Source: a virus
IMG/VR virus record: IMGVR_UViG_3300042484_002647
Span: 1-46,299 of that record
Strand: one strand, 5' to 3'
Length of the DNA stretch: 46,299 bases
The notes under the pieces are model-generated. The model ran no database searches, had not been told where the DNA came from, and saw only the letters and a program-made list of their open reading frames with translations. Below are positions 1,751 through 43,881 of this stretch, one piece after another. The translations under genes and the position numbers were made by a program. Each line of letters opens with the position of its first letter. Position 1 is the first letter of the stretch.

Positions 1751-2704
1751 ATGTCATACTCACAAGGCGGAATTATCGATGCCGCAGACTACAACACATT
1801 TGTAGGCACTAGTCCCAGCAGTACAACCAACCGAATTAATACAGTTTGGTCAGTGGGAAGTGGATCAGCTGGATACGGACAGACTGCTGTCAGTCAAGTG
1901 TCTGCTGCTGGAATAGTAACAGCCACTCAATGGGCATCACTTATCAACACATTGAACAGCATATTGACTCACCAAGCGGGATCCGGATCAGGCATTAGTG
2001 CCACCGTTGCTGGCAACAAAATCAACCATTTAAGCTCTCTTTCAACAAGCATTACCACTGGTTATACCAACCGTTTGAATTTTGCCAGTAACTCGGCTGT
2101 AGTTGCCGGAACTAACCAGACTACTGCCTGGACCACCACTTCAACAGCAGCTACGTTGGCCAGAAGTTTTGGCATACGTGCTGCATTTGCCAGTGCTGAT
2201 CAAGCTCGTTACTTTTTTAATTCCGGTGGAAGATTAAAGTTAAATGTTTCTGGCACCCAAAACGCTAGTGCCTCAGCCCGAACCAATGCTGCTATTGCAT
2301 TGTGTACTAATTTGGGTGGTATTGCTTTATTTGCAGCCAACACAAATGGTGGTAGAACAGGTTCTGGTGGTACATTGGGTACCAACGATACCACTAAGGG
2401 ATATCATACCACCACATACAACAGTAACGTAACCATCGTCAGCGTTACTAGTACTACTGCCAGCTATACAACAGATACAGCAACTATAACAGTAAACTGT
2501 AATGGTACACAAGGTAGCAATAATGATAAAGGTCTTCAAGTAGATTTCTGGATTAACCTAAGCTCAACATCCGGCGCCAACGCTGGTGGTTTGAGTGTTA
2601 ATGATGAATTCGGCATCAACGTTATCAGATCAATTGATCTATCATTCCCAGAATTAACTAACCTAAGCAACACCTGGGGTGCAGTCACCATATCATCACT
2701 ATAA
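1751..2704 (+). CDS. Probable virion structural protein
   Basis: 317 residues. The start MSYSQGGIIDAADYNTFVG and the Ser/Thr/Asn/Gly-rich low-charge composition match small structural proteins next to fibre genes in marine myoviruses. A helical-looking stretch near residues 60-80 (ATQWASLINTLNSIL) is followed by long beta-type sequence; no enzyme motif is visible. It is the second gene of a likely two-gene transcription unit and is followed within 25 bases by a strong terminator, which fits the end of a late structural operon. It could be a fibre-associated or baseplate-decoration protein; the exact role is unknown. Confidence 0.6.
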   Translation: MSYSQGGIIDAADYNTFVGTSPSSTTNRINTVWSVGSGSAGYGQTAVSQVSAAGIVTATQWASLINTLNSILTHQAGSGSGISATVAGNKINHLSSLSTSITTGYTNRLNFASNSAVVAGTNQTTAWTTTSTAATLARSFGIRAAFASADQARYFFNSGGRLKLNVSGTQNASASARTNAAIALCTNLGGIALFAANTNGGRTGSGGTLGTNDTTKGYHTTTYNSNVTIVSVTSTTASYTTDTATITVNCNGTQGSNNDKGLQVDFWINLSSTSGANAGGLSVNDEFGINVIRSIDLSFPELTNLSNTWGAVTISSL

Positions 2705-2773: not shown

Positions 2774-3121
2774 ATGAGCGACATACCAGAAATTGTTGAG
2801 CAATTAAAGCAAGCCACCAACTATGAACTTAACAAAACATTCCTGCGGGAAAAGATCCAGACAGATCTACACTTCACACATGCTGGTGGTTTGTTTAAGG
2901 CCACACCAGAATTGATATCCTTCGTACATGCCTGGCGTAATGCAGACGATGTATGGCCCTGGGGCGGAGGCGAAAGTATGTATATGGAAGATACGTACGA
3001 CAATCCCATACATATCGAAAATTGTGCAGAATTTTACCGTATTGCTTGTGAACACTATCAAAGAGTGATGAATACCTGGCACCAACAACATGCTGAACTC
3101 CGTAAACTCAGAAAAATCTAG
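2774..3121 (+). CDS. Conserved small phage protein, function unknown
   Basis: 115 residues, charged and mostly helical, with 'NKTFLREKIQTDLHFTH' near residue 20-36 and a C-terminal 'MNTWHQQHAELRKLRKI'. The length and layout resemble a small conserved protein next to structural genes in T4-like cyanophages, whose role is not known to me. It is the first gene after the terminator/promoter element. It overlaps the start of the next gene by 32 bases. No catalytic motif, signal peptide or membrane segment is visible. Confidence 0.65.
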   Translation: MSDIPEIVEQLKQATNYELNKTFLREKIQTDLHFTHAGGLFKATPELISFVHAWRNADDVWPWGGGESMYMEDTYDNPIHIENCAEFYRIACEHYQRVMNTWHQQHAELRKLRKI

Positions 3122-3872: not shown

Positions 3873-4686
3873 AGAACAACAGGGATATTTCACCTTTGCT
3901 CAGAATACTGATCAAGTGGATTATCTGCATCTGGCTTATTTGCAAGCACTAAATATAAAAGCAACACAACGTCATAGTAAATTTGCAGTGGCAGTGGATA
4001 CAGCGACCCGAGATCAAGTAAATGAAGACCATCTATCAGTATTTGATTACATCATCGATATTACACACGATTTTAATAGTGCTGATTCTACTTGGCGGTT
4101 AGCCAATGAATGGCAAGTCTTTTGGCTAACCCCATTCAAGGAAACCATCAAGCTGGAAAGCGATTTACTGTTTACCCGCAGTATAGATCATTGGTGGGAC
4201 GCATTTAGATTACGCAATGTATTCCTGAGTACTGGTTGTAGAAACTATCGGCAGGAATTAAGCACAGTCAGAACTTACAGACGAGTATTTGACGACAATC
4301 ATTTGCCTGATGTATACAATGGCTTGATGTATTTTAGATTTAGCCAGGAAGCACAGCAATTTTTCACCACAGCAAGACAAGTATTTGAAAATTGGCCAAT
4401 GATACGAGACCAACTTCGAGGCTGTGATGAGCAGACTCCCAGCACAGATTTATTATATGCGGTCACTGCACATATAGTTGGCCGTGAGCAATGCACCGCA
4501 CCCAGTCTGGATTTTATAAATTTTGTTCACATGAAGCCAGCAATAAACGGATACGACGAAGATCAGGTATTCTCGGATGTTTTTAATACTGAACAAGATG
4601 GTAATATGATTCGTATCAATAACATAAATCAGTATCACCCATTACATTATCACGATAAGACATGGATTCAACAGATTACGATTTAG
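3859..4686 (+). CDS. GT-A-like glycosyltransferase-family protein (copy 2)
   Basis: 275 residues, a paralogue of the preceding gene. The start MSQHKEQQGYFTFAQNTD is chosen because it overlaps the previous stop by 14 bases and gives the same N-terminus as copy 1; a longer upstream frame is possible but reads through the end of copy 1. In place of the DAD of copy 1 this protein has 'IKLESDLLFTRSIDHWW' near residues 95-111, so the acidic pair is ESD, a variant that may still bind metal. C-terminal residues 'FINFVHMKPAINGY' resemble the closing part of copy 1 around its 'MHVISKAYL'. Pairing of two diverged copies suggests two different acceptors (inference). Confidence 0.55.
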   Translation: MSQHKEQQGYFTFAQNTDQVDYLHLAYLQALNIKATQRHSKFAVAVDTATRDQVNEDHLSVFDYIIDITHDFNSADSTWRLANEWQVFWLTPFKETIKLESDLLFTRSIDHWWDAFRLRNVFLSTGCRNYRQELSTVRTYRRVFDDNHLPDVYNGLMYFRFSQEAQQFFTTARQVFENWPMIRDQLRGCDEQTPSTDLLYAVTAHIVGREQCTAPSLDFINFVHMKPAINGYDEDQVFSDVFNTEQDGNMIRINNINQYHPLHYHDKTWIQQITI

Positions 4687-5048
4687 CCTGGCAGTTGATT
4701 GCTGAAGCAGATGCTGTACGTGCTGCCAAAATGGCTGTAAAAGAGTATCGCCTGTATTATAATGCAGACGATGGCACCATCATCGGCATGTGGGAACGAG
4801 ATCATCCTGTGGGTGATTATATTGTATTGTCTGATCCTGATGAATTTCACAGGTCAAACACCAATCTCATGCGTGTGCGTGACGGGCAGTTAACTGTACT
4901 GGATCCACGTATACAGGATCAATTTAGATTACAACGATCCACACAGGGCCAGCAGGTGGTTCGTGGACATGCAGTAGTGGCACTGGCACCACATGAAACA
5001 TATCAAGACACGGAATTTTATGAAAAAAGAAATAGTGGATGTTGCTGA
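4662..5048 (+). CDS. Small protein, function unknown
   Basis: 128 residues, with an N-terminal helix (MDSTDYDLAWQLIAEADAVRAA) and a beta-type part containing 'YRLYYNADDGTIIGMWERD' and 'DYIVLSDPDEFHRSN'. The 'Y..YY..DDG.I.G' style is seen in small phage proteins of unknown role. It overlaps both neighbours (25 bases upstream, 29 downstream), which argues for a real, translationally coupled gene. I do not recognise a family. Confidence 0.6.
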   Translation: MDSTDYDLAWQLIAEADAVRAAKMAVKEYRLYYNADDGTIIGMWERDHPVGDYIVLSDPDEFHRSNTNLMRVRDGQLTVLDPRIQDQFRLQRSTQGQQVVRGHAVVALAPHETYQDTEFYEKRNSGCC

Positions 5049-5916
5049 CCTCTCATGTATTTATCTAACTTATGATGAACCTAAAAAAGAAGAATTTTGG
5101 ATCAAAATTCAAAACATGGTGCCCTGGGCTAAAAGAGTGGATGGCATCAAAGGTTCAGACGCCGCGCACAAAGCGGCTGCTGATGCTAGTGACACAGACC
5201 GCTTTATTCTCATTGACGGTGATAATATACCAGATGCTGCTTTCTTCAACCTGCAGTTGGTCCTGGACGATGCTAATCGGTCTAGTGTATTTCGCTGGCG
5301 GGCTCGGAATGCTGTCAACGGACTAATGTACGGCAACGGTGGTATGAGTTGTTGGACCCGGGAATTTGTCTACAACATGCGTACACATGAGAACACTGAT
5401 GGCGATGCTGCTAACGACGTGGAGTTTTGTTTCTATCCCAATTACTGGGCCATGAATGATTGCTATAGTACCACTTATCCCAATGCCACTCCATTCCAGG
5501 CCTGGCGAGCTGGATTTCGTGAAGGGGTCAAGATGTGCCTGGATCGTGGAGCAAAGCCCACATTAGCTGAGTTTGAAAGTCGAGTAAACAATCGTAATTA
5601 TGACCATTTATGTATTTGGCAATCAGTAGGCGCAGATGTTGACAACGGTTTTTGGGCCATATATGGTGCCAGATTAGGCACATACTACACCATGCTACGT
5701 GATTGGGATCACACCCAAGTACAAAATTTTGACGCATTGGCCGACATGTGGGCCACATTCAGTAAACATGATGCAAGTGCCAGTACCAGTCTGGGGGATA
5801 CGCTACGCACACGCCTGGGACTGCCCATAGTGGATATGAGTGCAGATGCCAGTAAATTCTTCAAGCACCACTATAAATCAAATTTTAAAAATTCAGGCCC
5901 CATGGTGAGAGAATGA
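5020..5916 (+). CDS. Glycosyltransferase-like protein sharing a domain with the 880-residue modular protein
   Basis: 298 residues. The start at MKKEIVDVADL is preferred because it is preceded by GGA at a normal distance; an ATG 27 bases upstream lacks one. The opening 'CIYLTYDEPKKEEFW', the 'DRFILIDGDNIPD' strand with an acidic pair near residue 66, then 'ARNAVNGLMYGNGGMSCW' near residues 93-110 and 'AWRAGFREGVKM' form a GT-A-like layout. The same order, with 'NPVNGLEYGHMGMIAY' and 'TWRTAFREVLKL', occurs at the C-terminus of the long modular protein at 19906. They are clearly homologous. The GDN acidic motif fits nucleotide-sugar binding; in the long protein the matching site reads differently. 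Role: probable sugar transfer, target unknown. Confidence 0.6.
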   Translation: MKKEIVDVADLSCIYLTYDEPKKEEFWIKIQNMVPWAKRVDGIKGSDAAHKAAADASDTDRFILIDGDNIPDAAFFNLQLVLDDANRSSVFRWRARNAVNGLMYGNGGMSCWTREFVYNMRTHENTDGDAANDVEFCFYPNYWAMNDCYSTTYPNATPFQAWRAGFREGVKMCLDRGAKPTLAEFESRVNNRNYDHLCIWQSVGADVDNGFWAIYGARLGTYYTMLRDWDHTQVQNFDALADMWATFSKHDASASTSLGDTLRTRLGLPIVDMSADASKFFKHHYKSNFKNSGPMVRE

Positions 5917-6629
5917 GAATATTAGTCAACGGTGCCAGCATCAGTGCTAAAAAACATGGGTGGCCATATCAATTACAGAAATTACTCAACTGTGAATTGA
6001 CCAATCTGTCAGTGCCCAGTTGTGGCTACGATTACGTACATGATACCACCATTGCTGAGTTATCTAAACAACCATATGATATAGTATTAATCATGTGGCC
6101 AGCTATTGCTGTACGTACTGATTGGAAAGTGGATGATGCCGCACAATTTGGAAACGATGCCTGGACCAGTACATATCATGCTGAGAGCAATGCCCGAATA
6201 GAATCGGATTGGATATTTGGTGGCAGTCACATTATTGATGAGAGTCAGGATATACCAATGGAGCATCGCAGTAGAATAAGCCGACTGTTTGCCGATTACT
6301 ATTCCGTGGTCAAGCCACCACAATTGATGCGATCATCATTGCTTAAAATCATTACGCTGCAATCGGTACTGCGGGCCACCAATACTTCCTACGTGTTCAT
6401 GATGCCCGCCCCCACTAAGCCCTTGCCTAGATTTTTACATTTATATAACATGATGGATCCCAATGGCTTTTTCGATCAAGAATATTTAATGTCATATTGT
6501 GTCAAGAACAACCTAATGGACCCTCGCGACGTCACTAATCCGGGTGATGTTGATTATCCGTCAGAAGCCGGGCATCAGGCATTTGCAGAATTATTGTTAC
6601 AGCATTTGCGAGCAAAATCATATGTCTAA
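5913..6629 (+). CDS. SGNH-hydrolase-like protein with altered nucleophile motif
   Basis: 238 residues. 'MRILVNGASIS' replaces the usual GDS of block I with GAS, keeping the presumed nucleophile Ser. A Gly-containing 'NLSVPSCGYDYV' stands where block II would be, 'DIVLIMWPAIAVRT' fits the block III strand but lacks the GxN motif, and 'YPSEAGHQAFAELLLQHL' near the C-terminus supplies the His of block V. SGNH enzymes remove or move acyl groups on sugars and lipids; whether this variant is catalytic is uncertain. ATGA overlap with the previous gene and an 8-base overlap with the next place it in the same operon. Confidence 0.55.
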   Translation: MRILVNGASISAKKHGWPYQLQKLLNCELTNLSVPSCGYDYVHDTTIAELSKQPYDIVLIMWPAIAVRTDWKVDDAAQFGNDAWTSTYHAESNARIESDWIFGGSHIIDESQDIPMEHRSRISRLFADYYSVVKPPQLMRSSLLKIITLQSVLRATNTSYVFMMPAPTKPLPRFLHLYNMMDPNGFFDQEYLMSYCVKNNLMDPRDVTNPGDVDYPSEAGHQAFAELLLQHLRAKSYV

Positions 6630-8004
6630 AAGTGATTTCATGGCAAGTGCAGAATGGATGAAGGACAATCTGGGCACGGCCATGTGCCTGGCCAAATGGA
6701 AACAAGTCAGTTTACATCTGCCTACTGGGTTAAATAACAGTTGCTACCATCCACCTTTGCATCCAATTGATGCCAGTTTATTAACCGACAACCCAGGGGC
6801 ACTACACAACACCCCGCATAAGAAAGAACAACGCAAAATAATGTTACGTCAGGAGAAGCCTGCTGAGTGTAGCTATTGTTGGAACATAGAAGAACACGGG
6901 CAATTGAGTGACCGCCATTATCGTTCAGGAGAACCCTGGGCCGCTGAAGAATTCACAGACATAATGAGCAGCACTGGAGATGAAGATGCTATACCTAGTT
7001 ATGTTGAAGTTAATTTTAATCATGCTTGTAATCTCAAATGTAGTTATTGCAGTCCACAGTTCAGCAGCAGCTGGCAACAAGAAGTTGACCGTTGGGGTGG
7101 TTATCCTACTAGTGCTATTCACAATGATCCTAGCCACTTTACTGGCCGTAATAGACCAATTCCTGCTAGAGATGATAATCCATACGTTGATGCCTTCTGG
7201 GAGTGGTGGCCCACGCTTTACACCCGCCTGAAACATTTCCGTATGACTGGTGGTGAGCCACTTATGGATAAAAACACATACAAGGTATTTGACTACGTTC
7301 TGGCTTTCCCTAAATCAGATCTGCATTTAAATGTAACAAGTAATTTCAGTGTTGAGCCGGTGATCTTTAACAAATATCTGGACTATGTCAAACAGTTATG
7401 CAACACACAGATTGAACATTTTATGCAATTTGTCAGTCTGGACTCGGGCAACATTAAACAGGCTGAATACATCAGACACGGTCTTAACGCCAATCGATTA
7501 CACAATTACGTCAATGAGTTTTTAACAGAAATCCCATATCGCAACAGTCTGACATTTATCATCACCATGAATAATCTCAGTGTAACTGGGTTACAACGAC
7601 AGCTGAATTGGATCCTGGATCTACGCAAGCAATATAGTAGCACCTATCAACGGGTGTGGTTTGATACACCATTATTGCGTACACCCACATGGCAAAGCCT
7701 GCAGATTCTGCCACCAGTGTATGCTGACAAATTATCCAGTATAGCGGATTGGATGGAAAAAAATCTAGAAACAGCTGAAACTCCTTTTCAGGGATTCAAG
7801 GATTATGAAGTACAACGTATGCGTCGTGACGTGGACTGGATGAAGGAAGGTCGTAATTTGGATCCGGAGTATATTAAACTACAACGAGCAGATTTTTATA
7901 GATTCTTCCATGAGCACGACCGACGACGCAAGACTAACTTTGAAGAGACATTTCCGGAAATGAACGAATTCTGGAAGGAATGTCGATATTACGCACAGTC
8001 CTAG
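6622..8004 (+). CDS. Radical SAM protein 1 with N-terminal Cys-cluster (twitch-like) domain
   Basis: 460 residues. The radical SAM motif CNLKCSYC gives C136, C140 and C143, which hold the 4Fe-4S cluster that splits S-adenosylmethionine; 'MTGGEPLM' at about 208-215 is the SAM-binding GGEP. Before this lies a Cys-bearing domain (C22, C41, C83, C86 with 'ECSYCW') resembling the auxiliary-cluster SPASM/twitch domain but placed N-terminal, as in the family described as twitch-domain radical SAM proteins in phages and bacteria. The C-terminal tail has 'NFEETFPEMNEFW', echoed in radical SAM protein 2. The start overlaps the previous stop by 8 bases. The substrate is unknown; auxiliary clusters are common in enzymes acting on peptides, but sugar-modifying members exist. 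Confidence 0.85.
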   Translation: MSKSDFMASAEWMKDNLGTAMCLAKWKQVSLHLPTGLNNSCYHPPLHPIDASLLTDNPGALHNTPHKKEQRKIMLRQEKPAECSYCWNIEEHGQLSDRHYRSGEPWAAEEFTDIMSSTGDEDAIPSYVEVNFNHACNLKCSYCSPQFSSSWQQEVDRWGGYPTSAIHNDPSHFTGRNRPIPARDDNPYVDAFWEWWPTLYTRLKHFRMTGGEPLMDKNTYKVFDYVLAFPKSDLHLNVTSNFSVEPVIFNKYLDYVKQLCNTQIEHFMQFVSLDSGNIKQAEYIRHGLNANRLHNYVNEFLTEIPYRNSLTFIITMNNLSVTGLQRQLNWILDLRKQYSSTYQRVWFDTPLLRTPTWQSLQILPPVYADKLSSIADWMEKNLETAETPFQGFKDYEVQRMRRDVDWMKEGRNLDPEYIKLQRADFYRFFHEHDRRRKTNFEETFPEMNEFWKECRYYAQS

Positions 8005-8690
8005 ATATTAAATTCTCTTTCGCACTGGGGATTATTTAAATAATTCACAACAACATCGTACATAATATCAGAAAATCTGGCATTCTCTTCAATACTCATA
8101 TGATTGGCATGTTCACGAGTTCTTGGTTTATGTGGATCAGCAACCCAATCAAATAGCGCAGTCTTGCACCTGATACCAATGGGGTGTGGGTAAACACCAT
8201 GATTAAAGCACGGCAGATGAATTACGTGTGGTATGCCAGATATGATAGTGGGCAATTCATTGAACCATTGTTTGAGAGTCCAATCATGAAAATCTTCTGA
8301 ATGTAGATATTTGTAATACATTTGTGCAGCCTGCATGAAATCTTCCATGGGATATTTTTTATTTAAATCCTGGTAGTTTTTTACCAATCCCCCAGAAGTG
8401 ACACTTGCAATGTTAAATGGTATATCGTAGTCACTGGGTATACGCTGCGCCTCTGTGTGGCACATAATTAAAATCTGTACCGGGGCATTGGACAATTCCT
8501 CTATCAACTTTTTTCTAGTGGACCACCAAGCTATTCCCCCAAACCCATGCCCCCTGGGCGTACCAGTTTTTCCAGTGAGTTTATTACATAGCCTATTAGG
8601 CCAGTAGAAATCTTCATTTCTTGCAGCACAAAAGCTATCACCTATTATTAAAATATCGTTCCAATTTACCATACAGATATTTATTGACAT
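8001..8690 (-). CDS. SGNH-hydrolase-like protein (inverted)
   Basis: 229 residues with 'ILIIGDSFCAARNE' (GDS at 17-19, Ser the likely nucleophile), 'GFGGIAWWSTRKKL' as a Gly block, and 'IQILIMCHTEAQR' as the central strand. A C-terminal His lies in 'HANHMSIEENARFSD'. The start is backed by AGGGGAAG a few bases upstream. The gene is inverted inside the radical SAM block: it ends tail to tail with radical SAM 1 (the two TAG stops overlap in CTAG) and its first codons overlap the -35 box of the promoter for radical SAM 2. This looks like a separately inserted gene (inference). Substrate unknown. Confidence 0.6.
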   Translation of the reverse strand: MSINICMVNWNDILIIGDSFCAARNEDFYWPNRLCNKLTGKTGTPRGHGFGGIAWWSTRKKLIEELSNAPVQILIMCHTEAQRIPSDYDIPFNIASVTSGGLVKNYQDLNKKYPMEDFMQAAQMYYKYLHSEDFHDWTLKQWFNELPTIISGIPHVIHLPCFNHGVYPHPIGIRCKTALFDWVADPHKPRTREHANHMSIEENARFSDIMYDVVVNYLNNPQCEREFNI

Positions 8691-8712
8691 TTATTTCTTC
8701 CCCTGTTAAAAT
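8684..8712 (+). promoter_or_regulatory. Sigma70-type promoter, possibly giving a leaderless mRNA
   Basis: TTGACA (8684-8689), 17 bases, TAAAAT (8707-8712). The ATG of radical SAM protein 2 begins 7 bases after the -10 box, so the expected transcription start falls on the ATG. No ribosome site precedes that ATG. The -35 box overlaps codon 1 to 3 of the divergent SGNH gene. Confidence 0.65.
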
Positions 8713-8718
8713 AAAAAT

Positions 8719-10077
8719 ATGCCCAGAAAACATAACGAAACCGATTTAGAATACAAACACCGTGTAATTGACATCAAATCAGAAAGCTTCTGCGGAGCCA
8801 AATGGTACAACGCCACCATCTGGTTGGGGTCAGGCATGACCACCAGCTGCCATCATCCATTGCCACATAAAGTATCAGTGGCAGAGGTGGAGGCCAATTT
8901 CAAAGCATTGCACAACACCGCACAAAAGAAAGCAGAGCGTGCTCAGATGCAACTGGGGGTCAAGCCAGCAGGCTGCGAGTATTGCTGGAAGATAGAAGAC
9001 ATTGGCCGCGACAACATCAGTGACCGTGTATACAAGACTGTAATTTATGACGACCAGGACTTAGACGATGCATACCATATGGACAGCAATACAGATGTGG
9101 ATCTCCAGACTCTGGAAATCGCATTTGATCGTACCTGCAATTTTGCTTGCAGTTATTGCAACCCAGCTTTTAGCAGCACTTGGGTTAGTGATATTCGCCG
9201 TAACGGACCCTACACCAACTTGGTATCAGACGGTCGCAACCATTTTACTCATGTTCACGATAGTAGCCAATTGTATTCTTTCGGGGAAGATAATCCGTAT
9301 ACACAAGCGTTCTTTAAATGGTGGGAAAGCGATTTACACCGAACTCTCAAAGAACTCAGGCTAACTGGTGGCGAGCCACTGATGTCAGGAGAAACATTTC
9401 GATTGTTGGAATGGTTTAAAACAAATGACACAGACATGCGATTTGCACTTAACAGTAACCTGGGCGCCAAGCCAGAGCTAATTGATCGAATGATTGATGC
9501 CAGCCAAAACATGAAGCATTTCCATCTGTACACCAGCAACGAGGCAGTGGGTTTACAAGCAGAGTACATACGTGATGGTATGGTTTGGGACGACTGGGCT
9601 AACAATGTAGAGAAAGTTTTGACCAATGGCAATGTAGAAGGGTTTCACATGATGTGTACCATCAATGCCCTGTGCCTGAGCAGTCTACATACCTTCCTGG
9701 ACATCATGTTGCAATGGAAGCAGGAATATGGCAAGGACTATCCTACATTTACGCTAAATATTTTAAGATTCCCCAGCTTTCAAAGTCCACTGGTATTGCC
9801 CGACGAACTCAGAACACAATTCCGCTACCGTATTCAAGCCTGGCTAGATGCCAATGGATCCAATGAATTTTTACACCAGATGGAAATCAATCAGATTCAA
9901 CGTTTGATTGACTATCTAGATGTGGTAAAGACACCGCACATGGGCGCAGCAGAGCTGTCGGTATTACAGAAAGACTTTAAGAATTTTTATCAACAGTACG
10001 ACCAGCGTCGTGGCAAAAACTTTACCGAGACATTTCCAGAATTAACAGAATGGTACAATGGCATACAAATACAATAG
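8719..10077 (+). CDS. Radical SAM protein 2 with N-terminal Cys-cluster domain
   Basis: 452 residues, closest in the window to radical SAM 1. Auxiliary-cluster candidates are C25, C44, C86 and C89 ('GCEYCW'); the radical SAM motif CNFACSYC gives C140, C144 and C147, followed by 'LTGGEPLM'. Like protein 1 it has 'SC.HP' in the N-terminal domain rather than the paired CC of proteins 3-5, and the tail 'NFTETFPELTEWY'. So proteins 1 and 2 form one subtype. It is the first gene of the second run of radical SAM genes, with its own promoter. Role: S-adenosylmethionine-dependent radical chemistry on an unidentified substrate. Confidence 0.85.
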   Translation: MPRKHNETDLEYKHRVIDIKSESFCGAKWYNATIWLGSGMTTSCHHPLPHKVSVAEVEANFKALHNTAQKKAERAQMQLGVKPAGCEYCWKIEDIGRDNISDRVYKTVIYDDQDLDDAYHMDSNTDVDLQTLEIAFDRTCNFACSYCNPAFSSTWVSDIRRNGPYTNLVSDGRNHFTHVHDSSQLYSFGEDNPYTQAFFKWWESDLHRTLKELRLTGGEPLMSGETFRLLEWFKTNDTDMRFALNSNLGAKPELIDRMIDASQNMKHFHLYTSNEAVGLQAEYIRDGMVWDDWANNVEKVLTNGNVEGFHMMCTINALCLSSLHTFLDIMLQWKQEYGKDYPTFTLNILRFPSFQSPLVLPDELRTQFRYRIQAWLDANGSNEFLHQMEINQIQRLIDYLDVVKTPHMGAAELSVLQKDFKNFYQQYDQRRGKNFTETFPELTEWYNGIQIQ

Positions 10078-11368
10078 TCGATTCCCCACATACATTAAAC
10101 CAGAACTACTCACTGACCAACAAATACATCGTCTGACAGAGAGTAAATCTTTCTGTATGATGCCCTGGACTCACATGCACGCCTTCCCAGATGGCCGTGC
10201 TTTTCCTTGTTGTCTCAGCGTGGACAAATATCCCATTGGTGATCTGCACAAGAACACAATGGCAGAGGTTTGGAACGATCAACCCCTGCGTGACATGCGT
10301 GTGAAAATGCTGTCGGACGAGCCTACGAAAGAATGTTCCAAATGCTATGAGCAGGAAGATTCGGGCTTTTTCAGTATGCGTAACAGCAGCAACAAAGCAT
10401 TTGGGCATCACGTTAGCGTAGTAGACGACACCCACGAAGATGGCACATATGATGATTTTAAATTGCGCTATTACGATATACGATTCAGTAACTTGTGCAA
10501 TTTCAAATGTCGTAGTTGTGGCAGCATCTTCAGCAGCAATTGGTATCAGGACGAGGTCAAGATGTTTGGTCCCAGACCATATCCACAAATTGCTATTGCT
10601 GGGCGGCACAAAGACGACATGTGGCAACAGATGCAGGAACACATACCACATCTGGAACAAATTTACTTTGCTGGTGGTGAACCATTAATCATGGAAGAAC
10701 ACTATCGTATCCTGCGTGAGTTGGTCAACCGTGAAATGTTCCATGTCCGTCTACAATACAACACTAACTTCTCAGAACTAAAGTTCAAGGGCCAGGATGT
10801 CCTGGAATTGTGGAAACTATTCGATAATGTCAGCGTGGGCGCCAGTCTGGATGGTAGTCATGCTCGTGGCGAATATATTCGCAAAGGCCAAATTTGGTCC
10901 GAGACTGTGGCCAACCGCGAACGCATGTTGAAGACATGCCCTGATGTGGACTTCTATGTCAGCAGTACTGTGAGTATATTTAACGTACTACACATACCAG
11001 ACTTTCACCGAGAGTGGACAGACCTAGGATTGATACAGGCCAAAGATTGGAACATCAATATTTTACAAGGTCCTGATCATGAGCGTGTGAACATCCTACC
11101 CGAGTATTATAAAGATCTGGCCAGACAAAAGATTGCTGAACACATCGCCTGGTTGGAGCCACAGGATCCAGTTACTCGTGCCACCAATGGTTATCGCAGC
11201 CTGATAAACTTCATGGACCAGGACCACGGTAGCACAACTGGTGAGACTGAACTAAATGGTCTACTGTTGGAATTTTTTAAACGTAACTACGCCCTGGATA
11301 AATTTCGTGGTGAAGATTTCTACACCACATTCCCTGAATATCAGGATTTAAAACACCATGCCCGATAA
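10058..11368 (+). CDS. Radical SAM protein 3 with N-terminal Cys-cluster domain
   Basis: 436 residues. The N-terminal domain reads 'SFCMMPWTHMHAFPDG' and 'FPCCLS' with C33, C51, C52, C93 and C96 ('ECSKCYEQE'), a layout much like SPASM domains (C..PW, G...PCC, C..C). The catalytic motif CNFKCRSC gives C147, C151 and C154, followed by 'FAGGEPLI'. The C-terminus keeps 'DFYTTFPEYQDL'. It overlaps protein 2 by 20 bases and protein 4 by 11, so translation is likely coupled and the proteins may be made in fixed ratio. This subtype (paired CC) differs from proteins 1 and 2. Confidence 0.85.
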   Translation: MAYKYNSRFPTYIKPELLTDQQIHRLTESKSFCMMPWTHMHAFPDGRAFPCCLSVDKYPIGDLHKNTMAEVWNDQPLRDMRVKMLSDEPTKECSKCYEQEDSGFFSMRNSSNKAFGHHVSVVDDTHEDGTYDDFKLRYYDIRFSNLCNFKCRSCGSIFSSNWYQDEVKMFGPRPYPQIAIAGRHKDDMWQQMQEHIPHLEQIYFAGGEPLIMEEHYRILRELVNREMFHVRLQYNTNFSELKFKGQDVLELWKLFDNVSVGASLDGSHARGEYIRKGQIWSETVANRERMLKTCPDVDFYVSSTVSIFNVLHIPDFHREWTDLGLIQAKDWNINILQGPDHERVNILPEYYKDLARQKIAEHIAWLEPQDPVTRATNGYRSLINFMDQDHGSTTGETELNGLLLEFFKRNYALDKFRGEDFYTTFPEYQDLKHHAR

Positions 11369-12581
11369 ACTACCTGACTCCATCTGTATGTTGCCCTGGG
11401 TCAGTATTGAGACCAGCCCAGTGGGCACAGTTCGCCCTTGCTGTATGGCACATGAGGAGATCACTGATGAGAACGGTGAGATATACGACCTAAATCGTAC
11501 CGATCTGGAAACAGTATATCGTAGTCCATATATGCAGAAGTTGCGCCAGGATTTTCGTGATGGCGAGAAGCCTGCCACATGTAATCGTTGCTGGGATGAA
11601 GAAGCAGCAGGACGTATCAGCAAGCGTATGAACAGTCGATTGAGATTAAAAACTCAGTATGAGCAGGTGGATTGGTCCAATGACAATCCTGACCAACTGT
11701 GGTTTGTGGATCTCAAGCTGGGCAACATCTGTAATCTCAAATGTCGTATCTGCGGCAGCTGGAGCAGTAGTAAATGGGCTGCAGAAGAAATGGACTATAT
11801 TAAATCCACTGGTCGAGACCCCAAAGCACATCAAGCATATACATGGTTACGACAGGGCAACTGGCCACGCAAGACAGAAACATTCTGGGAAAATATGCGG
11901 AGCCTGTTGCCTAACATCCAATATCTGGAATTCACTGGCGGAGAACCCTGGATGATCAAAGAACACTTTGATCTACTAGAATACGCAGTAGACACTGGTG
12001 ATAGTCAACATATTGATATACACTACAATACCAATGCTACACAATATCCTGGTGGCCACTGGGGCCTATGGAAGAATTTTGGCCGTGTGGATATTGCATT
12101 TAGTGTGGACAATGTGGGCGATAGATTTGAATACGAACGTTATGGGGCCAAATGGCAAGAATCAAACATCATAATTGATGAAATTCATATTATGAAAAAT
12201 ATCAGTGTGCCCAACATTACCACACAGTTATGCTTTACCATCAACATACAGAATGTCTACTACTTAGATGAATTATTGGCCTGGGCAGATACTAAATCCT
12301 TTGGTAGTGTTTACTTTAACATGATGCATGGGCCCGAGCATATGAGTGTGCAGTACATGACGCCTGCGGCTCGAACAATGGTTTTAGATAAACTCAAGAC
12401 CATGTTCTGGACTGGGCACAGGTATCACCAGGATCTGCAAGGGGTCATTAACTTCATTGAACAGGGTCCAGGCAGTGACGGTACAGAATTTTTACGCAAG
12501 ATGCGGCAGACTGATGAATATCGCAAACAATGTTTCACCGATACACATCCTGAGATAGCCAGAGCCATGGGCTATGAATAA
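11358..12581 (+). CDS. Radical SAM protein 4 with N-terminal Cys-cluster domain
   Basis: 407 residues. N-terminal domain: 'SICMLPWVSIETSPVG', 'RPCCMA' and 'TCNRCWDEE' (C10, C28, C29, C75, C78). Catalytic motif CNLKCRIC: C125, C129, C132, then 'FTGGEPWM'. The tail 'CFTDTHPEIARAMGY' is a shorter form of the tail in proteins 1-3. Of the five this is the shortest, with no extension before the Cys domain. It starts inside the end of protein 3 and overlaps protein 5 by 8 bases. Substrate unknown. Confidence 0.85.
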   Translation: MPDKLPDSICMLPWVSIETSPVGTVRPCCMAHEEITDENGEIYDLNRTDLETVYRSPYMQKLRQDFRDGEKPATCNRCWDEEAAGRISKRMNSRLRLKTQYEQVDWSNDNPDQLWFVDLKLGNICNLKCRICGSWSSSKWAAEEMDYIKSTGRDPKAHQAYTWLRQGNWPRKTETFWENMRSLLPNIQYLEFTGGEPWMIKEHFDLLEYAVDTGDSQHIDIHYNTNATQYPGGHWGLWKNFGRVDIAFSVDNVGDRFEYERYGAKWQESNIIIDEIHIMKNISVPNITTQLCFTINIQNVYYLDELLAWADTKSFGSVYFNMMHGPEHMSVQYMTPAARTMVLDKLKTMFWTGHRYHQDLQGVINFIEQGPGSDGTEFLRKMRQTDEYRKQCFTDTHPEIARAMGYE

Positions 12582-13863
12582 ACCTGCAACACTTTGCCTG
12601 GCCCCCTGGACACATACATATCTCAGTCCACAAACAGAACGTAGAATGTGTTGTGCCAGTCGAGAGCCTGCACAAAACTTTCGGCAATACATTGACACCA
12701 GTGCCGGAACTGGCCAATATATACCCATCACCCTGGACGAACATTGGAATGGCGAGCACATGAGATCCGTGCGCCTGCGTATGTTACGTGGGGAAAGTCT
12801 CCCAGAGTGTGAAGTATGCAATGACCGATTGCTCAATACTGATGTTTACCGTAGTTACTTTAATCAGATGTTTGGGCATAAGTATACAGAAGCAATAGCA
12901 GCAACAGATGCCACTGGTTATACCACTATGAAGCCAGTGAGCTGGGATTATCGATTCAGTAATCTTTGCAATTTCAAATGCCGCATGTGTGGTGACATGC
13001 TTAGTAGTGCCTGGGAAACTGAGCAACGACAGTACGATATGGTAAATTGGCATGATCCAAAAAACAATTGGATGCGCCCAGAAATTAAACAGCAAATAAC
13101 TAAATTCCAAGATTCTCAAATTGAGGCAGAGTTTGCCCAAGCAGTAGAAGAGCACAGGGTCGAGGAAGTATACTGGGTCGGTGGAGAACCCCTCATGTAT
13201 GAGCAGCACTGGCGCTATATGCGCCGCATCATTGAGTTAGGGGATGGACCAAATGTTTACGCTAGGTATAATACAAATCTTAGCCGTGTTAATTATCGTG
13301 GTGTTGATCTGTACACTGATATTTTATCTGGGCTTCGCGACTGGCAAATATGTGCAAGCCTTGATGGTACGCAAGAAATTGGAGAGTATATTAGAACAGG
13401 TCTCAATTATAATCAATGGCTCGAAAATTTCCGCAGAGGAATCGAAATCCAAAGAAATCGCAGACAAATGCGAATCGATTTCACCCTCACCCTCCCAGGA
13501 CTCTTCGAAGTCGAAAAAATCCAACAACTCGGGCAGCAGCTCGGAGTGGATATCTTAGCAAAAGTAGTCTTTAGTTTCAGCCCTGACATTGTCATGTCGC
13601 CCTTGGCACTACCCAGAGAATTATTACATCCTTGGGTAGACGAACATATATCCACAGTAAGTGGCGCTCTAAGGGACGTACTGGCTCAACTAAAAACCAG
13701 ACCCACTTTTGCCGAGCAGTGGCCAGACACTTACAAAACTGGACTAATTCGAGGCAAACAAAGGATCGAAAGACTTGAACAAATTAGAAAAGATACGTAT
13801 ACTATGACGGATATCCTGGCACAGCGACCAGAAGTAATAGAATGGTGGAATTCAATTGTATAA
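12574..13863 (+). CDS. Radical SAM protein 5 with N-terminal Cys-cluster domain
   Basis: 429 residues. N-terminal domain: 'TLCLAPWTHTYLSPQ', 'RRMCCASR' and 'ECEVC' (C8, C26, C27, C79, C82), with an insertion of about 20 residues between CC and the next conserved block compared with proteins 3 and 4. Catalytic motif CNFKCRMC: C132, C136, C139, then 'VGGEPLMY'. The tail is more diverged but still ends '.RPEVIEWW'. It overlaps its neighbours on both sides by 8 bases. It is the last of the radical SAM run; the two following small or unknown genes are coupled to it and may act with it (inference). Confidence 0.85.
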   Translation: MNKPATLCLAPWTHTYLSPQTERRMCCASREPAQNFRQYIDTSAGTGQYIPITLDEHWNGEHMRSVRLRMLRGESLPECEVCNDRLLNTDVYRSYFNQMFGHKYTEAIAATDATGYTTMKPVSWDYRFSNLCNFKCRMCGDMLSSAWETEQRQYDMVNWHDPKNNWMRPEIKQQITKFQDSQIEAEFAQAVEEHRVEEVYWVGGEPLMYEQHWRYMRRIIELGDGPNVYARYNTNLSRVNYRGVDLYTDILSGLRDWQICASLDGTQEIGEYIRTGLNYNQWLENFRRGIEIQRNRRQMRIDFTLTLPGLFEVEKIQQLGQQLGVDILAKVVFSFSPDIVMSPLALPRELLHPWVDEHISTVSGALRDVLAQLKTRPTFAEQWPDTYKTGLIRGKQRIERLEQIRKDTYTMTDILAQRPEVIEWWNSIV

Positions 13864-14083
13864 TAAATCGGCTTGGTGCAATACTCTGCTATTGTTGAGA
13901 AACGAATCCTTTGCCACACATAAACCCATTAATATATATCTTGTCACTGAAACAATGAAGATGGTGTTTCCTGGCGAATATGTCGTGGAAGAATATTTCA
14001 ACAAGCATACTATGGTAGTGGATTTACGATTGAAGTTTACTACTCCAGAAGATGAGACGTGGTTCCTGTTACAATATGAATAA
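13856..14083 (+). CDS. Small protein related at its C-terminus to the small gene array near 34 kb
   Basis: 75 residues. The end, 'LRLKFTTPEDETWFLLQYE', matches the pattern of the tandem small proteins at 33.9-34.8 kb (F.F....D...F.LRW/LKY). The start overlaps the radical SAM 5 stop by 8 bases; an internal ATG at about residue 34 is a possible alternative. Because the next gene's ATG is buried in its last codons, it is probably coupled to it. Function unknown. A small partner or a short substrate for the radical SAM enzymes cannot be excluded, but there is no leader-like Gly-Gly or Cys-rich core to support a peptide precursor. Confidence 0.55.
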   Translation: MYNKSAWCNTLLLLRNESFATHKPINIYLVTETMKMVFPGEYVVEEYFNKHTMVVDLRLKFTTPEDETWFLLQYE

Positions 14084-15149
14084 AGTTAAGGTAGTGCTAC
14101 GTGACCCTCTGAGTAAACAGCTATTACTAGACTACACTATTGCAGTCTACGACACACCCATGGCCGCACGTTGGTATACTGCATTGGTGGATCTGTTACG
14201 CAATAATAACTATCTGGAAAAGAACTTCTGCTTCCTGGGTTTCCCTGACAGCCGTCGTGATGTACCTTATATCTGTAATGAATTAAATATAGCTGCGGCC
14301 CAAATTAATCAATTCTTTGATCAAGAATATTGGATAGATGAAATTTATACACCTAAGTTCATCCAAAATTTTGACAGAGGCCCTAATCAGACAGCCATGA
14401 ACCTGCTGCATAATCACTTTGAGCATCTGCAGGGAACAGTTGGTGGTCTGAGCGACTACTACAAGCGAGCAGACTATGACACCAAGTTTGCCATCCGCCA
14501 ACTAAACAATCTATGCCATGAGGCAGAAAGTCTCATGCTGAGTCAACGCAAACAAATCACTGCACCTGAATGGGTACGCCCCAGTCAGATAACAACATTT
14601 TTAAATGCACCCAGGATTGATTTCCCACATGAACTTAAAACACCTTTTACGGAAGCTGGATACGATAGAAAATTCGGGGAAGTTTACCTACATTGGACTC
14701 AGATTGGTAAGACGCTCTACGAGGTTTATCGCGACGAGCAAGGAGTGGATATTGGATCAGCTACTTGTGATGCTATTACTCACCTTAAGTATTATTCAGG
14801 GGAGTTTGATGTGGAGTGGGCAAAAGATATCGTTCATGATGGTCCACATCCGTGGCACACTAAAGAAATGGCAGGGTATCGTGCGTGGCTAGAGCGCAAT
14901 GGCTTTGACTTGAACGACACACAATACAACTATGGATATCATCCAGTGGGCCAAGTAGAACTATCAGAGAGTTTTGGAACCACAGATCCGCAGGCCATAT
15001 GGCCCATGCTCAGTAAACACCTGGATATATTTCAGATCACAGCAGGTGGTGTAACGGCTAGATATGACTACGCCTGGACTGACTCTGATTATTACCAACA
15101 ACAGATCGACAGGTTAAGGCCAGGATATGATTATAGTAGCCGGGGGTGA
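14076..15149 (+). CDS. Unknown protein next to the radical SAM run
   Basis: 357 residues from MNKVKVVLRDPLS; the start is embedded in the previous gene's last codons (ATGAATAA). The protein is rich in aromatic and charged residues, mostly helical in its first half ('NQTAMNLLHNHFEHLQG', 'AIRQLNNLCHEAESLM'), with a C-terminal 'TARYDYAWTDSDYYQQQ'. No Cys cluster, signal peptide or membrane segment is visible. I do not recognise a defined family. Position between the radical SAM run and the SGNH pair, with overlaps on both sides, suggests it belongs to the same pathway, perhaps as a scaffold or substrate-binding protein (inference). Confidence 0.6.
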   Translation: MNKVKVVLRDPLSKQLLLDYTIAVYDTPMAARWYTALVDLLRNNNYLEKNFCFLGFPDSRRDVPYICNELNIAAAQINQFFDQEYWIDEIYTPKFIQNFDRGPNQTAMNLLHNHFEHLQGTVGGLSDYYKRADYDTKFAIRQLNNLCHEAESLMLSQRKQITAPEWVRPSQITTFLNAPRIDFPHELKTPFTEAGYDRKFGEVYLHWTQIGKTLYEVYRDEQGVDIGSATCDAITHLKYYSGEFDVEWAKDIVHDGPHPWHTKEMAGYRAWLERNGFDLNDTQYNYGYHPVGQVELSESFGTTDPQAIWPMLSKHLDIFQITAGGVTARYDYAWTDSDYYQQQIDRLRPGYDYSSRG

Positions 15150-15741
15150 CAGTTTTGTCTGGGGCAGTGAGCTATCAGATCACCGACATGGCGGACATGA
15201 TGGATACAGTCGTCTGACCTTTCCGGCATTGCTAGCCGGAGATAATGAATATGCATGTTTAGCATACCCTGGCGATGGTAACTGGCAGATTATGACTTTT
15301 TTATCCAAATACATAGCCAATCATGGTAATGATGATACGTTTGTAATAGCATGTTGGACTTGGCCAACTCGTGGTCATATGGCATCGACCAGTCGAGATG
15401 CAGTACGTAATGCACAAACACAGTTAAAAGAACATAATATTCCCTACTTGTTTACTTGTGCTGATAATTGTTTATTGGAATGGTTATCAGACGATACAGA
15501 TTGGGACCATTGGTTCCTATTCCCTCCTGCAGAAGAAGAGTGGAATACACAAACACCCAGAGGTTTCTACCAGTGGGCTGTGGAGAATAAATATCCAGTA
15601 GGCCCAGACGGGCATCCATTAGACGCAGCACATCAAGATGCAGCACTACTCATCAAGGACAAATTTAATGAAGTGGTTAAAAAACATCTGGAACAGAATG
15701 GTTCTGGAAATCAGATATCGCAAGAAACTCAAAGAACTTAA
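15127..15741 (+). CDS. SGNH-hydrolase-like protein
   Basis: 204 residues. 'MIIVAGGDSFVWGSEL' supplies the GDS nucleophile block at the very N-terminus, 'CLAYPGDGNWQIM' is a Gly/Asn block, 'FVIACWTWPTRGHM' the central strand, and 'DGHPLDAAHQDAALLI' the C-terminal D..H block. This is a near-complete set of SGNH motifs, so an esterase or acyl-transfer activity on a sugar is plausible. No signal peptide is present, so action would be cytoplasmic. It overlaps the previous gene by 23 bases, and its last 15 codons overlap a 23-codon microgene in another frame. Confidence 0.65.
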   Translation: MIIVAGGDSFVWGSELSDHRHGGHDGYSRLTFPALLAGDNEYACLAYPGDGNWQIMTFLSKYIANHGNDDTFVIACWTWPTRGHMASTSRDAVRNAQTQLKEHNIPYLFTCADNCLLEWLSDDTDWDHWFLFPPAEEEWNTQTPRGFYQWAVENKYPVGPDGHPLDAAHQDAALLIKDKFNEVVKKHLEQNGSGNQISQETQRT

Positions 15742-15770: not shown

Positions 15771-16436
15771 ATGATCAAAAATATTTTGGCAGTGGGTGAC
15801 AGTTTTACCTACGGTGAAGAACTCAACAGTCGTGATGAAGCATACCCCATTAAATTGGGCGAGCTTCTGGGAGCCAGTGTCATCAATGAAGCCAGACCTG
15901 GCTCTGGCAACAAACGCATGATACGAAATGTCATTAAACACATCAGCGAAGGCAATCCAGTGGACCTGGTGGTAATTGGTTGGACCAGTGCTGGCAGAAT
16001 GGAATTTGCCGACATGGCCGGTGTATACGATTTATGGCCTGGCTATGCTGGTGATCTAGTGGGCAAGGCTGATGGATACAATTGGCGCACAGAAATGCTC
16101 AGGTACATTAACCAATATCATGACCCAGCATATCTTTACCAACAATATCTATTGGACATTATATTGATGCAGAGTTACTTACGTACTCAAAACATACGAT
16201 ATGTCATGACACGTATATGTAGCAACGAATATTATCATAACACCTACAAGTATAAATTTAAAAATTTAACAGACAGCATCGACACAACAGACTTTGTGGG
16301 CTGGCCCAATGATGGTATGACTGAATGGACCATGGGTTGTCCCACTGGTCCCAACAACCATTTTCTAGAAGCCGGCCATCTAGTAGTAGCAAACAAATTA
16401 TATGAACATATTAGGAATCGCGGCTGGGTTTCATGA
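15771..16436 (+). CDS. SGNH-hydrolase-like protein
   Basis: 221 residues. Block I is 'ILAVGDSFTYGEEL' (GDS at 9-11), block II 'EARPGSGNKRMI' with Gly and Asn, block III 'DLVVIGWTSAGRMEF', and block V 'NNHFLEAGHLVVANKLY' with the His. The motifs are complete enough to expect the SGNH fold; substrate unknown. It is the direct neighbour of the carbamoyltransferase gene, whose ATG lies 35 bases before this gene's end. Together they could acylate/deacylate and carbamoylate the same sugar (inference). Confidence 0.7.
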   Translation: MIKNILAVGDSFTYGEELNSRDEAYPIKLGELLGASVINEARPGSGNKRMIRNVIKHISEGNPVDLVVIGWTSAGRMEFADMAGVYDLWPGYAGDLVGKADGYNWRTEMLRYINQYHDPAYLYQQYLLDIILMQSYLRTQNIRYVMTRICSNEYYHNTYKYKFKNLTDSIDTTDFVGWPNDGMTEWTMGCPTGPNNHFLEAGHLVVANKLYEHIRNRGWVS

Positions 16437-17883
16437 CGCCAGCGCAACAGTATTAAGTCGCAGTGGTGAAATACTATTTGCTGGGCATTCAGAACGCTAC
16501 AGCAAGATCAAGAGCGACCCCGACATCTGCATCGATCTCATGCGCGATGTACAAGATCACTGGCCCGTTGACCATGTTGCATATTATGAGCGTCCCTGGG
16601 CCAAACAACTTCGCAGACTGTACAGTGGTGAGGGGATTGAGTGGGATAAACTCAGTGTTAAAAAAATATTACAACAACAGTTTGGGCCATGTGTATTGCC
16701 CGACAATATCAGTAGTCACAATCATCATCTGAGTCATGCAGCAGCAGGATTCCAGACCAGTACATTTGATCGCGCGACAGTGGTGATAATAGATGCCATT
16801 GGAGAGTGGGACACTATAAGTATATGGGGTGCTGAGTATGTCAACGGGCGAGCCCAGTACAAACGGCTATGGGGGCAACGTTATCCCCATAGCATTGGTC
16901 TTTTCTACTCAGCCATGACTCAGCGTGTGGGGTTGAAGCCCAACGAAGAAGAATATATACTAATGGGTATGGCTGCCTACGGCAAACGTGGCATGGGCAG
17001 CTGGTTACAGAACCTGACTGTAAAGAACGAATGGGATATTACATTTCAGGACAACATGCACATAGGCGTTGACCCTGGATTACTCAAGCACGTGGGCGAC
17101 ATAGACATAGCTGCCAGCGCACAGTATGTGGCCGAGCAATTGGTGTTAAATGTAATGAAACGTGCAGCTGATTTTGGTTGGAGTAGTAATCTAGTATACG
17201 GTGGCGGTGTGGCATTAAATTGTAGTATTAATCAATATGTGGGGAATTATTTTGATAGAATATGGATTATGCCTAATCCTGGCGACGCTGGTAGTAGTCT
17301 TGGTGCCGCTGCTCTTGCTCTGGGGCATCGTGTTTCCTGGGTCAGCCCTTATCTTGGCCATGATATTCCTGGCATTTACCCTGTTAACGCCGCTCTGGAC
17401 ATTCTGCTTACTGACAGGATTGTTGGTATTGCTAGTGGTCGTGCTGAGTTCGGACCCAGGGCATTAGGCAACAGAAGTTTATTAGCGGACCCACGTGGTC
17501 CAGATATAAAGGATCAAGTAAATGAAATTAAAAGACGCCAGAAGTTTCGTCCCTTCGCACCCGTTATCCTGGAGGAATTTGTGGATCAATACTTCCATAT
17601 GCCTCGTGGTTGGGACGCTAGCCCTTACATGCAATCTGTCGGCATTTGCCTGCGCCCTGACCTATACCCTGCTATTTCTCATATCGATGGCAGTAGTAGA
17701 GTACAGACAGTTAAAAAAGATTGCGGAAGTGGAATCCGTGAACTATTAGAAAAGTGGTTTGTGATAACTGGGTGTCCTATGTTGCTCAACACGTCATTGA
17801 ACATACGTGGCGAGCCCATGGTAAACGATGTGTCAGATGCTCAGAGGTTTCAGAAGGTGTATGGAATCAAGGTATTGACGTGA
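16402..17883 (+). CDS. Carbamoyltransferase (NodU/TobZ/CmcH family)
   Basis: 493 residues. The family transfers a carbamoyl group from carbamoyl phosphate, via carbamoyl-AMP, to a hydroxyl of a sugar or antibiotic. The N-terminal Kae1-like domain shows 'MNILGIAAGFHDASATVL', the metal-binding 'NHHLSHA' (about 107-113), 'VIIDAIGEWDT' (about 128-138) and the 'VYGGGVALNC' glycine loop (265-274). The C-terminal YrdC-like half shows 'EFGPRALGNRSLLADPR' (349-365) and 'KFRPFAPVILEE'. It is a little shorter than most family members (about 550-600 residues). No signal peptide. It sits between two SGNH genes, with overlapping ends, pointing to decoration of a glycan. Phage copies are uncommon. Confidence 0.9.
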   Translation: MNILGIAAGFHDASATVLSRSGEILFAGHSERYSKIKSDPDICIDLMRDVQDHWPVDHVAYYERPWAKQLRRLYSGEGIEWDKLSVKKILQQQFGPCVLPDNISSHNHHLSHAAAGFQTSTFDRATVVIIDAIGEWDTISIWGAEYVNGRAQYKRLWGQRYPHSIGLFYSAMTQRVGLKPNEEEYILMGMAAYGKRGMGSWLQNLTVKNEWDITFQDNMHIGVDPGLLKHVGDIDIAASAQYVAEQLVLNVMKRAADFGWSSNLVYGGGVALNCSINQYVGNYFDRIWIMPNPGDAGSSLGAAALALGHRVSWVSPYLGHDIPGIYPVNAALDILLTDRIVGIASGRAEFGPRALGNRSLLADPRGPDIKDQVNEIKRRQKFRPFAPVILEEFVDQYFHMPRGWDASPYMQSVGICLRPDLYPAISHIDGSSRVQTVKKDCGSGIRELLEKWFVITGCPMLLNTSLNIRGEPMVNDVSDAQRFQKVYGIKVLT

Positions 17884-43675: not shown

Positions 43676-43881
43676 TCAATCAGACACTTTAAAAAATATT
43701 GTGTAGAGGTCATCCACAGCACTGGTGTATTTAATACCATGCGTGACCGACCACTATAACCCCAGGTCAGCCAGATCAATCGGCCGGTGCGATAACATCT
43801 TTGTGGCCGCCAGGCAAATTGCCTTTGCCAAAGCCTACCTGTTGATTCGATAGTATACATAAGATTGTCCACAGGCATCAA
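43672..43881 (-). CDS. Small basic protein
   Basis: 69 residues, Arg/Trp-rich ('GRLWQRQFAWRPQRCYRTGR', 'LIWLTWGYSGRSRM'). ATGA overlaps bind it to its neighbours, but otherwise support is thin. Function unknown. Confidence 0.5.
   Translation of the reverse strand: MMPVDNLMYTIESTGRLWQRQFAWRPQRCYRTGRLIWLTWGYSGRSRMVLNTPVLWMTSTQYFLKCLIE

Follow-up and report, generated by a model that had tools for sequence, protein, structure and literature searches.

Five N-terminal-twitch radical SAM enzymes encoded in fixed order within a conserved module of T4-like phages, with a putative role in glycan modification

The twitch radical S-adenosylmethionine (SAM) dehydrogenase BtrN of butirosin synthesis oxidises an aminocyclitol and carries one auxiliary [4Fe-4S] cluster on four cysteines (PMC9012708). 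In SPASM peptide maturases, the SPASM domain is C-terminal to the radical SAM core, and a precursor peptide gene lies alongside. In phages, radical SAM cassettes have been mentioned in passing, without count, order or partners, in T4-like pelagimyophages, where they lie after a giant VrlC-type protein and tail fibres and accompany GT8 genes (PMC7029224). Likewise, the T4-like marine genome TARA_ERS488813_N000010 is described in PMC5332604 as having 12 radical SAM genes. Radical-SAM-rich T4-like phages are therefore already known from these two sources. Here, we describe five radical SAM proteins, R1–R5, encoded at positions 6622–13863 of the virus record IMGVR_UViG_3300042484_002647; the whole stretch of 46,299 bases, hereafter the window, is probably a fragment and starts at a tail fibre gene. 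We consider it reasonably probable that R1–R5 are five specialised enzymes acting as one set in a conserved phage module that makes and decorates an unusual glycan. All five open reading frames (ORFs) were confirmed as follows, with scores against the NCBIfam model NF033640.

R1, 6622–8004, plus strand: N-terminal-twitch radical SAM enzyme of 460 amino acids; 290 bits, E 2e-86; own orthologue clade, 78 loci; seven cysteines 100% conserved.
R2, 8719–10077, plus strand: 452 amino acids; 308 bits, E 9e-92; own clade, 72 loci.
R3, 10058–11368, plus strand: 436 amino acids; 401 bits, E 7e-120; PF13186 (SPASM) E 6e-13 at residues 33–97; fused to R4 in several relatives.
R4, 11358–12581, plus strand: 407 amino acids; 335 bits, E 9e-100; PF13186 E 3e-7 at residues 10–79.
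R5, 12574–13863, plus strand: 429 amino acids; 285 bits, E 8e-85; most divergent lineage, 68-locus clade, stem length 2.13.

NF033640 (N_Twi_rSAM, twitch domain-containing radical SAM protein) has a curated cut-off of 170 bits, which all five proteins far exceed (285–401 bits) over nearly their full length, so that their membership of this family is not a chance result. The model is silent on function and we found no characterised member of the family; the fixed cassette of five lineages is a trait of these phages. Each protein contains CxxxCxxC, GGEP and an N-terminal domain with four to five cysteines, in agreement with an earlier sequence-only reading of this DNA. The four N-terminal cysteines are conserved in the R clades and fit a predicted single four-cysteine auxiliary cluster of the BtrN kind. 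However, the twitch domain follows the core in BtrN and precedes it in R1–R5, and R3–R5 add a fifth cysteine as a CC pair. The R proteins also differ from the SPASM peptide maturases, as R3 and R4, which pass the Pfam SPASM cut-off, do so at their N-termini and with only four to five cysteines.

The genes R2–R5 overlap directly (R2/R3 by 20 bp, R3/R4 by 11 bp and R4/R5 by 8 bp), as had been claimed, whereas R1 stands apart, a minus-strand ORF at 8001–8690 lying between it and R2. The two subtypes proposed earlier are real: R1 and R2 are 30% identical to each other and branch apart from R3–R5. The C..PW motif that had been assigned to all five holds for R3–R5, while R1 and R2 carry CLAKW and CGAKW. 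Pairwise identity among the five is 20–30% only, which indicates that they are ancient paralogues in old orthologous lineages and did not arise by local expansion in recent times. This identity, together with the single orthologue per clade, rules out recent tandem duplication in this phage, and the earlier term "expansion" is misleading for five old lineages with one orthologue per position.

Viral relatives were fetched with R3 and R1 as queries, giving 414 distinct NF033640-family radical SAM proteins from about 110 viral loci, from which a tree was built. CxxxCxxC is present in 414/414 and GGE in 412/414 of these relatives. The tree resolves five lineages; every one contains a single window copy and roughly one copy from each locus (78, 72, 76, 74 and 68 loci for R1–R5, respectively), and the order R1-R2-R3-R4-R5 is constant in nearly all loci not cut by a contig end. 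Within each clade, the four N-terminal cysteines are 89–100% conserved and the SAM-cluster cysteines 100% conserved. Extra copies are optional, those placed with R3 and R4 sitting on weaker branches (support 0.79 and 0.59), and a small set of loci (L028–L032 and L034) has R3- and R4-like copies only. Comparison with the nearest relative (contig 3300042898_002111) gives dN/dS of 0.02–0.16 for R1–R5, the ratios being rough for R1–R3, where dS is near saturation; judged from these values, all five genes are under purifying selection. Some relatives have a further radical SAM gene inserted between R1 and R2, whose product bears its SPASM domain at the C-terminus, as is usual (L023:6312-7331).

Because loci found through R1 and R3 are biased towards the genes in question, a neighbour-based search was run with the conserved genes E and F, which flank the set upstream and downstream. 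Each search gave a set of at least 80 loci, and all E- and F-anchored counts given here are among the matches listed. NF033640-family members are present in 75/80 E loci and 79/80 F loci. Absence of the radical SAM genes from some E-bearing phages was considered for the five remaining E loci and rejected, since these contigs end within about 2 kb of E and the loci are truncated. In all 73 loci spanning E to F (64 distinct E proteins), R1–R5 are present in order: 66 have five separate genes, six have R3 and R4 fused, and one (L218) has R1 and R2 fused. The fused proteins of these seven loci are 841–897 amino acids long with two CxxxCxxC and two GGE motifs each; because some of the loci lie on a common contig, fewer than seven of the fusions are independent. 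Such fusions between set neighbours are good evidence for joint action of R1–R5, and synteny together with the R3+R4 and R1+R2 fusions supports their co-function. The genome-neighbourhood survey, proposed beforehand, thus finds the five co-occurring in fixed order, and independent single insertions are ruled out by the constant order across loci, including those found through E and F. Both this result and the 89–100% cysteine conservation per clade run counter to the two refutations that the sequence-only reading had set out. Five in a row, which the sequence-only reading took to be unusual, is the rule in this virus group. Neither the five-member cassette in fixed order nor its fusions turned up in the literature searched, most subscription papers being outside that search, so this is no proof of absence.

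The carriers are T4-like phages of up to 364 kb from lakes and seas, and a T4-type Gp23 capsid protein is encoded in 16/23 long carrier contigs. In two long contigs, genes for a virion protein of 4,190 or 4,855 amino acids and for fibres or other structural proteins lie upstream of the module, and one of the two also has baseplate-wedge genes there. PHROG matches upstream in L353 and L354 comprise a giant virion protein, baseplate wedge and tail fibres, the name VrlC being given by position and size. This position corresponds to what PMC7029224 terms the host recognition cluster, and the module resembles the pelagimyophage cassettes in its T4-like carriers, its position and its GT8-like genes; it differs in its five orthologues, its fusions and its extent of about 15 genes. 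TARA_ERS488813_N000010 is likewise T4-like and radical-SAM-rich, but PMC5332604 reads its genes as Fe–S metabolism. A further explanation, for which this reading speaks, would make R1–R5 generic auxiliary metabolic genes for host metabolism or Fe–S chemistry with no common pathway, and a phage radical SAM gene has also been discussed as the haem-synthesis gene ahbD (PMC9301287). We regard this as improbable, since constant order, fusions and an obligate neighbourhood are unexpected for independent metabolic genes and since each of 23 long carrier contigs holds 5–21 members of this one family. In a search of isolated-phage proteins, the R genes match only Vibrio phages K566 and K567 and one single-cell virus, at 22–27% identity, and E and F have no match. 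Vibrio phage K566 (L115), which is sequenced and has four distant NF033640-family members (about 22–23% identity), is a candidate for laboratory work.

In this module of about 15 genes, the five are accompanied by the same kinds of partner in the same order: tail fibre, A, B, C1, C2, D, E, R1, (c9), R2, R3, R4, (c9), R5, F, SGNH genes, NodU-type carbamoyltransferase, c9 and E-prime. The DegT sugar aminotransferase and the nucleotide-sugar epimerase follow downstream on the opposite strand. Counts out of 79 loci derive from clustering of the genes neighbouring the radical SAM genes. F-anchored loci have limited flanks, so counts out of 80 are lower bounds.

Tail fibre, 63–1736, plus strand: autoproteolytic chaperone-like C-terminus; PHROG tail fibre E 2e-9; PF11962 (Peptidase_G2) E 9e-4, below its cut-off; family in 64/79 loci.
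A, 1751–2704, plus strand: conserved gene adjoining the fibre; 71/79 loci.
B, 2774–3121, plus strand: conserved 115-amino-acid protein; 71/79 loci.
C1, 3090–3872, plus strand: weakly GT8-like glycosyltransferase with a PYDET..DAD motif; C1/C2 paralogue pair in 74/79 loci.
C2, 3823–4686, plus strand: paralogue of C1, assigned on the same basis.
D, 4662–5048, plus strand: 128 amino acids, poorly conserved; 69/79 loci; no invariant alignment column.
E, 4993–5916, plus strand: highly conserved protein resembling GT-A glycosyltransferases or nucleotidyltransferases; 75/79 loci; LIDGDN motif invariant.
SGNH-like ORF, 5913–6629, plus strand: overlaps R1; clusters with an SGNH-like family; close homologues in 22 loci.
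SGNH-like ORF between R1 and R2, 8001–8690, minus strand: GDS motif by eye, upstream AGGGGAAGAAATAAATG; homologues in six loci only, hence not general in the module.
F, 14052–15149, plus strand: conserved partner; 62/79 loci; overlaps R5 in 46/62 loci.
SGNH-like hydrolase or acyltransferase, 15127–15741, plus strand: clusters with 15771–16436; at least 52/80 F-anchored loci.
SGNH/GDSL-like protein, 15771–16436, plus strand: PF19547 E 2e-8, Lipase_GDSL_2 E 8e-4; at least 54/80 F-anchored loci.
NodU-type O-carbamoyltransferase, 16402–17883, plus strand: PF16861 E 3e-47, PF02543 E 3e-34; PHROG Nol-like E 6e-89; at least 76/80 F-anchored loci.
c9-type protein, 18753–19907, minus strand: family in 47/79 loci.
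E-prime, 19906–22548, plus strand: 880-amino-acid repeat protein with an E-like domain; clusters with E; at least 65/80 F-anchored loci.
DegT/DnrJ/EryC1 sugar aminotransferase, 22526–23662, minus strand: PF01041 E 5e-82; at least 51/80 F-anchored loci.
Nucleotide-sugar epimerase/dehydratase, 23623–24594, minus strand: PF01370 E 7e-40; at least 47/80 F-anchored loci.

The partners point to carbohydrate chemistry. Sugars receive carbamoyl groups from NodU-type enzymes, amino- and deoxy-sugars are products of DegT enzymes and epimerases, and SGNH proteins attach or strip acyl groups. As NodU, DegT, epimerase, SGNH and glycosyltransferase-like genes surround R1–R5, the substrate of the five enzymes is likely a sugar or glycan. 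In each R enzyme, the core cluster would cleave SAM to a 5'-deoxyadenosyl radical, which would abstract hydrogen at a different position of one sugar or oligosaccharide, a difference suggested by the fixed set of five divergent lineages. The N-terminal cluster, with four cysteines as in BtrN, may serve as electron acceptor or donor, and the outcome may be oxidation, epimerisation, deoxygenation or coupling. C1, C2 and E would assemble the glycan, which the NodU-type protein would carbamoylate and the SGNH proteins acylate or deacylate. The step-wise modification of one polymer by R1–R5, as suggested earlier, is a plausible hypothesis. By comparison, jumbo cyanophage polysaccharide-modification clusters share sugar-nucleotide genes and paralogous glycosyltransferases in large phages, but the term radical SAM is absent from the review describing them (PMC7824862).

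Should the product be a glycan, its likeliest target, at about even odds, is a virion protein of the phage itself, the tail fibre or a different one, as the adjoining fibre gene suggests. The host envelope is a less probable but still substantial candidate, and host lipopolysaccharide is the favoured target of GT8 genes in similar phages (PMC7029224). In its most specific form, the proposal would make R1–R5 an ordered radical-chemistry assembly line in which every enzyme abstracts one hydrogen. Starting from a simple sugar chain, this line would produce a unique glycan on the virion, carried by the tail fibre in a widespread group of T4-like phages; we hold this form to be speculative and rather unlikely.

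Several observations weigh against a sugar or glycan as substrate. Both substrate and target of R1–R5 are deduced from gene neighbourhood, and the assignment of C and E as glycosyltransferases rests on weak matches: against PDB, the C1/C2 profile matches only glycogenin (E 0.05–0.5), and the E model (pLDDT 84) has HddC, SunS and WrtF as closest folds (E 5e-3 and above, TM about 0.3), a weak resemblance to GT-A or nucleotidyltransferase folds. F (model pLDDT 87) matches no solved fold, the best hit against PDB being at E 1.6. Among solved enzymes, those nearest to the R proteins in sequence include viperin and SkfB, neither of them a sugar enzyme, along with BlsE, which acts on a sugar nucleotide. 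In addition, no sugar genes are visible alongside many of the bacterial NF033640 arrays, L123 and L192 among them.

The sequence-only reading had offered peptides as well as sugars as substrates, and the neighbourhood argues for the latter. In a peptide scheme, the enzymes would act like SPASM peptide maturases on residues of the tail fibre or of the A, B or D products, by cross-linking, epimerisation or oxidation. Many SPASM enzymes do work on peptides (PMC9012708), R3–R5 are weakly similar to the peptide maturases StsB, AlbA and DynA, and upstream genes encode a fibre and two small conserved proteins, B and D. However, no conserved ORF the size of a precursor of a ribosomally synthesised and post-translationally modified peptide was found between the R genes in the loci compared. 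Moreover, the overlap of R5 and F in most loci leaves no room for a precursor, D lacks invariant columns, and NodU, DegT and epimerase are not accounted for. We therefore judge protein or peptide modification unlikely.

The same enzyme classes could also serve phage DNA hypermodification, with radical SAM enzymes, carbamoyltransferase, aminotransferase and glycosyltransferases acting on modified bases. Some phage base-modification clusters include a radical SAM enzyme, and the window encodes a thymidylate synthase (25625–26533) and a QueE-like radical SAM protein (43878–44759, minus strand; phrog_2076 E 9e-44), the latter possibly for 7-deazaguanine DNA modification. Against this, the module is anchored to tail-fibre genes and not to replication genes, and the thymidine hypermodification families PF18746 and PF18724 gave no match in 16 records in a search run without a positive control. 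DNA hypermodification is the least probable of the explanations considered.

Should a glycan of the virion or envelope prove to be the product, as we favour, the module would bear on host recognition and on the exclusion of rivals by these phages, and would supply new sugar chemistry from a family for which no characterised member was found. A widespread gene set of large aquatic phages would gain a testable role, with five radical enzymes and the sugar genes to use them in one virus.

Further features of the partner genes are as follows. The product of A is probably structural, and B is perhaps an assembly chaperone. The tail fibre contains tandem AVTGAATLSSTL-type repeats. The C-terminus TEK..KP of the c9-type protein recalls GT10 glycosyltransferases; the window copy has no Pfam match and no credible PDB match. 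Significant viral-library matches of F are all uncharacterised, including one in Agrobacterium phage Atu_ph07, and its conserved LHNHFE and CHE.E motifs suggest a metal site.

Members of the NF033640 family were also detected by scanning genome contigs, in Bdellovibrionota, Flavobacteriales and others. One Bacteriovoracaceae chromosome bears a tandem radical SAM array that covers all five phage classes (L123:6040-18036), adjoins an obg-like gene identified by eye and contains a small secreted-looking ORF. In line with a glycan role, NodU-type genes lie near family members in several bacterial loci, and in another Bacteriovoracaceae genome a NodU-type carbamoyltransferase and an N-terminal-twitch radical SAM enzyme form one 934-amino-acid protein (L153:1069-3873, minus strand), the sole such fusion among the ORFs searched. 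The phage module itself occurs on five contigs of bacterial metagenome-assembled genomes (MAGs; L116, L117, L118, L168 and L169, labelled Pelagibacter, Verrucomicrobia and Rickettsiales), which are probably phage sequence in bacterial bins. The Elusimicrobia MAG bin-0981 carries family members on at least 12 contigs (L125, L127, L129–L131, L133, L135, L137–L139, L141 and L142), a pattern that is either unusual or reflects a bin containing phage.

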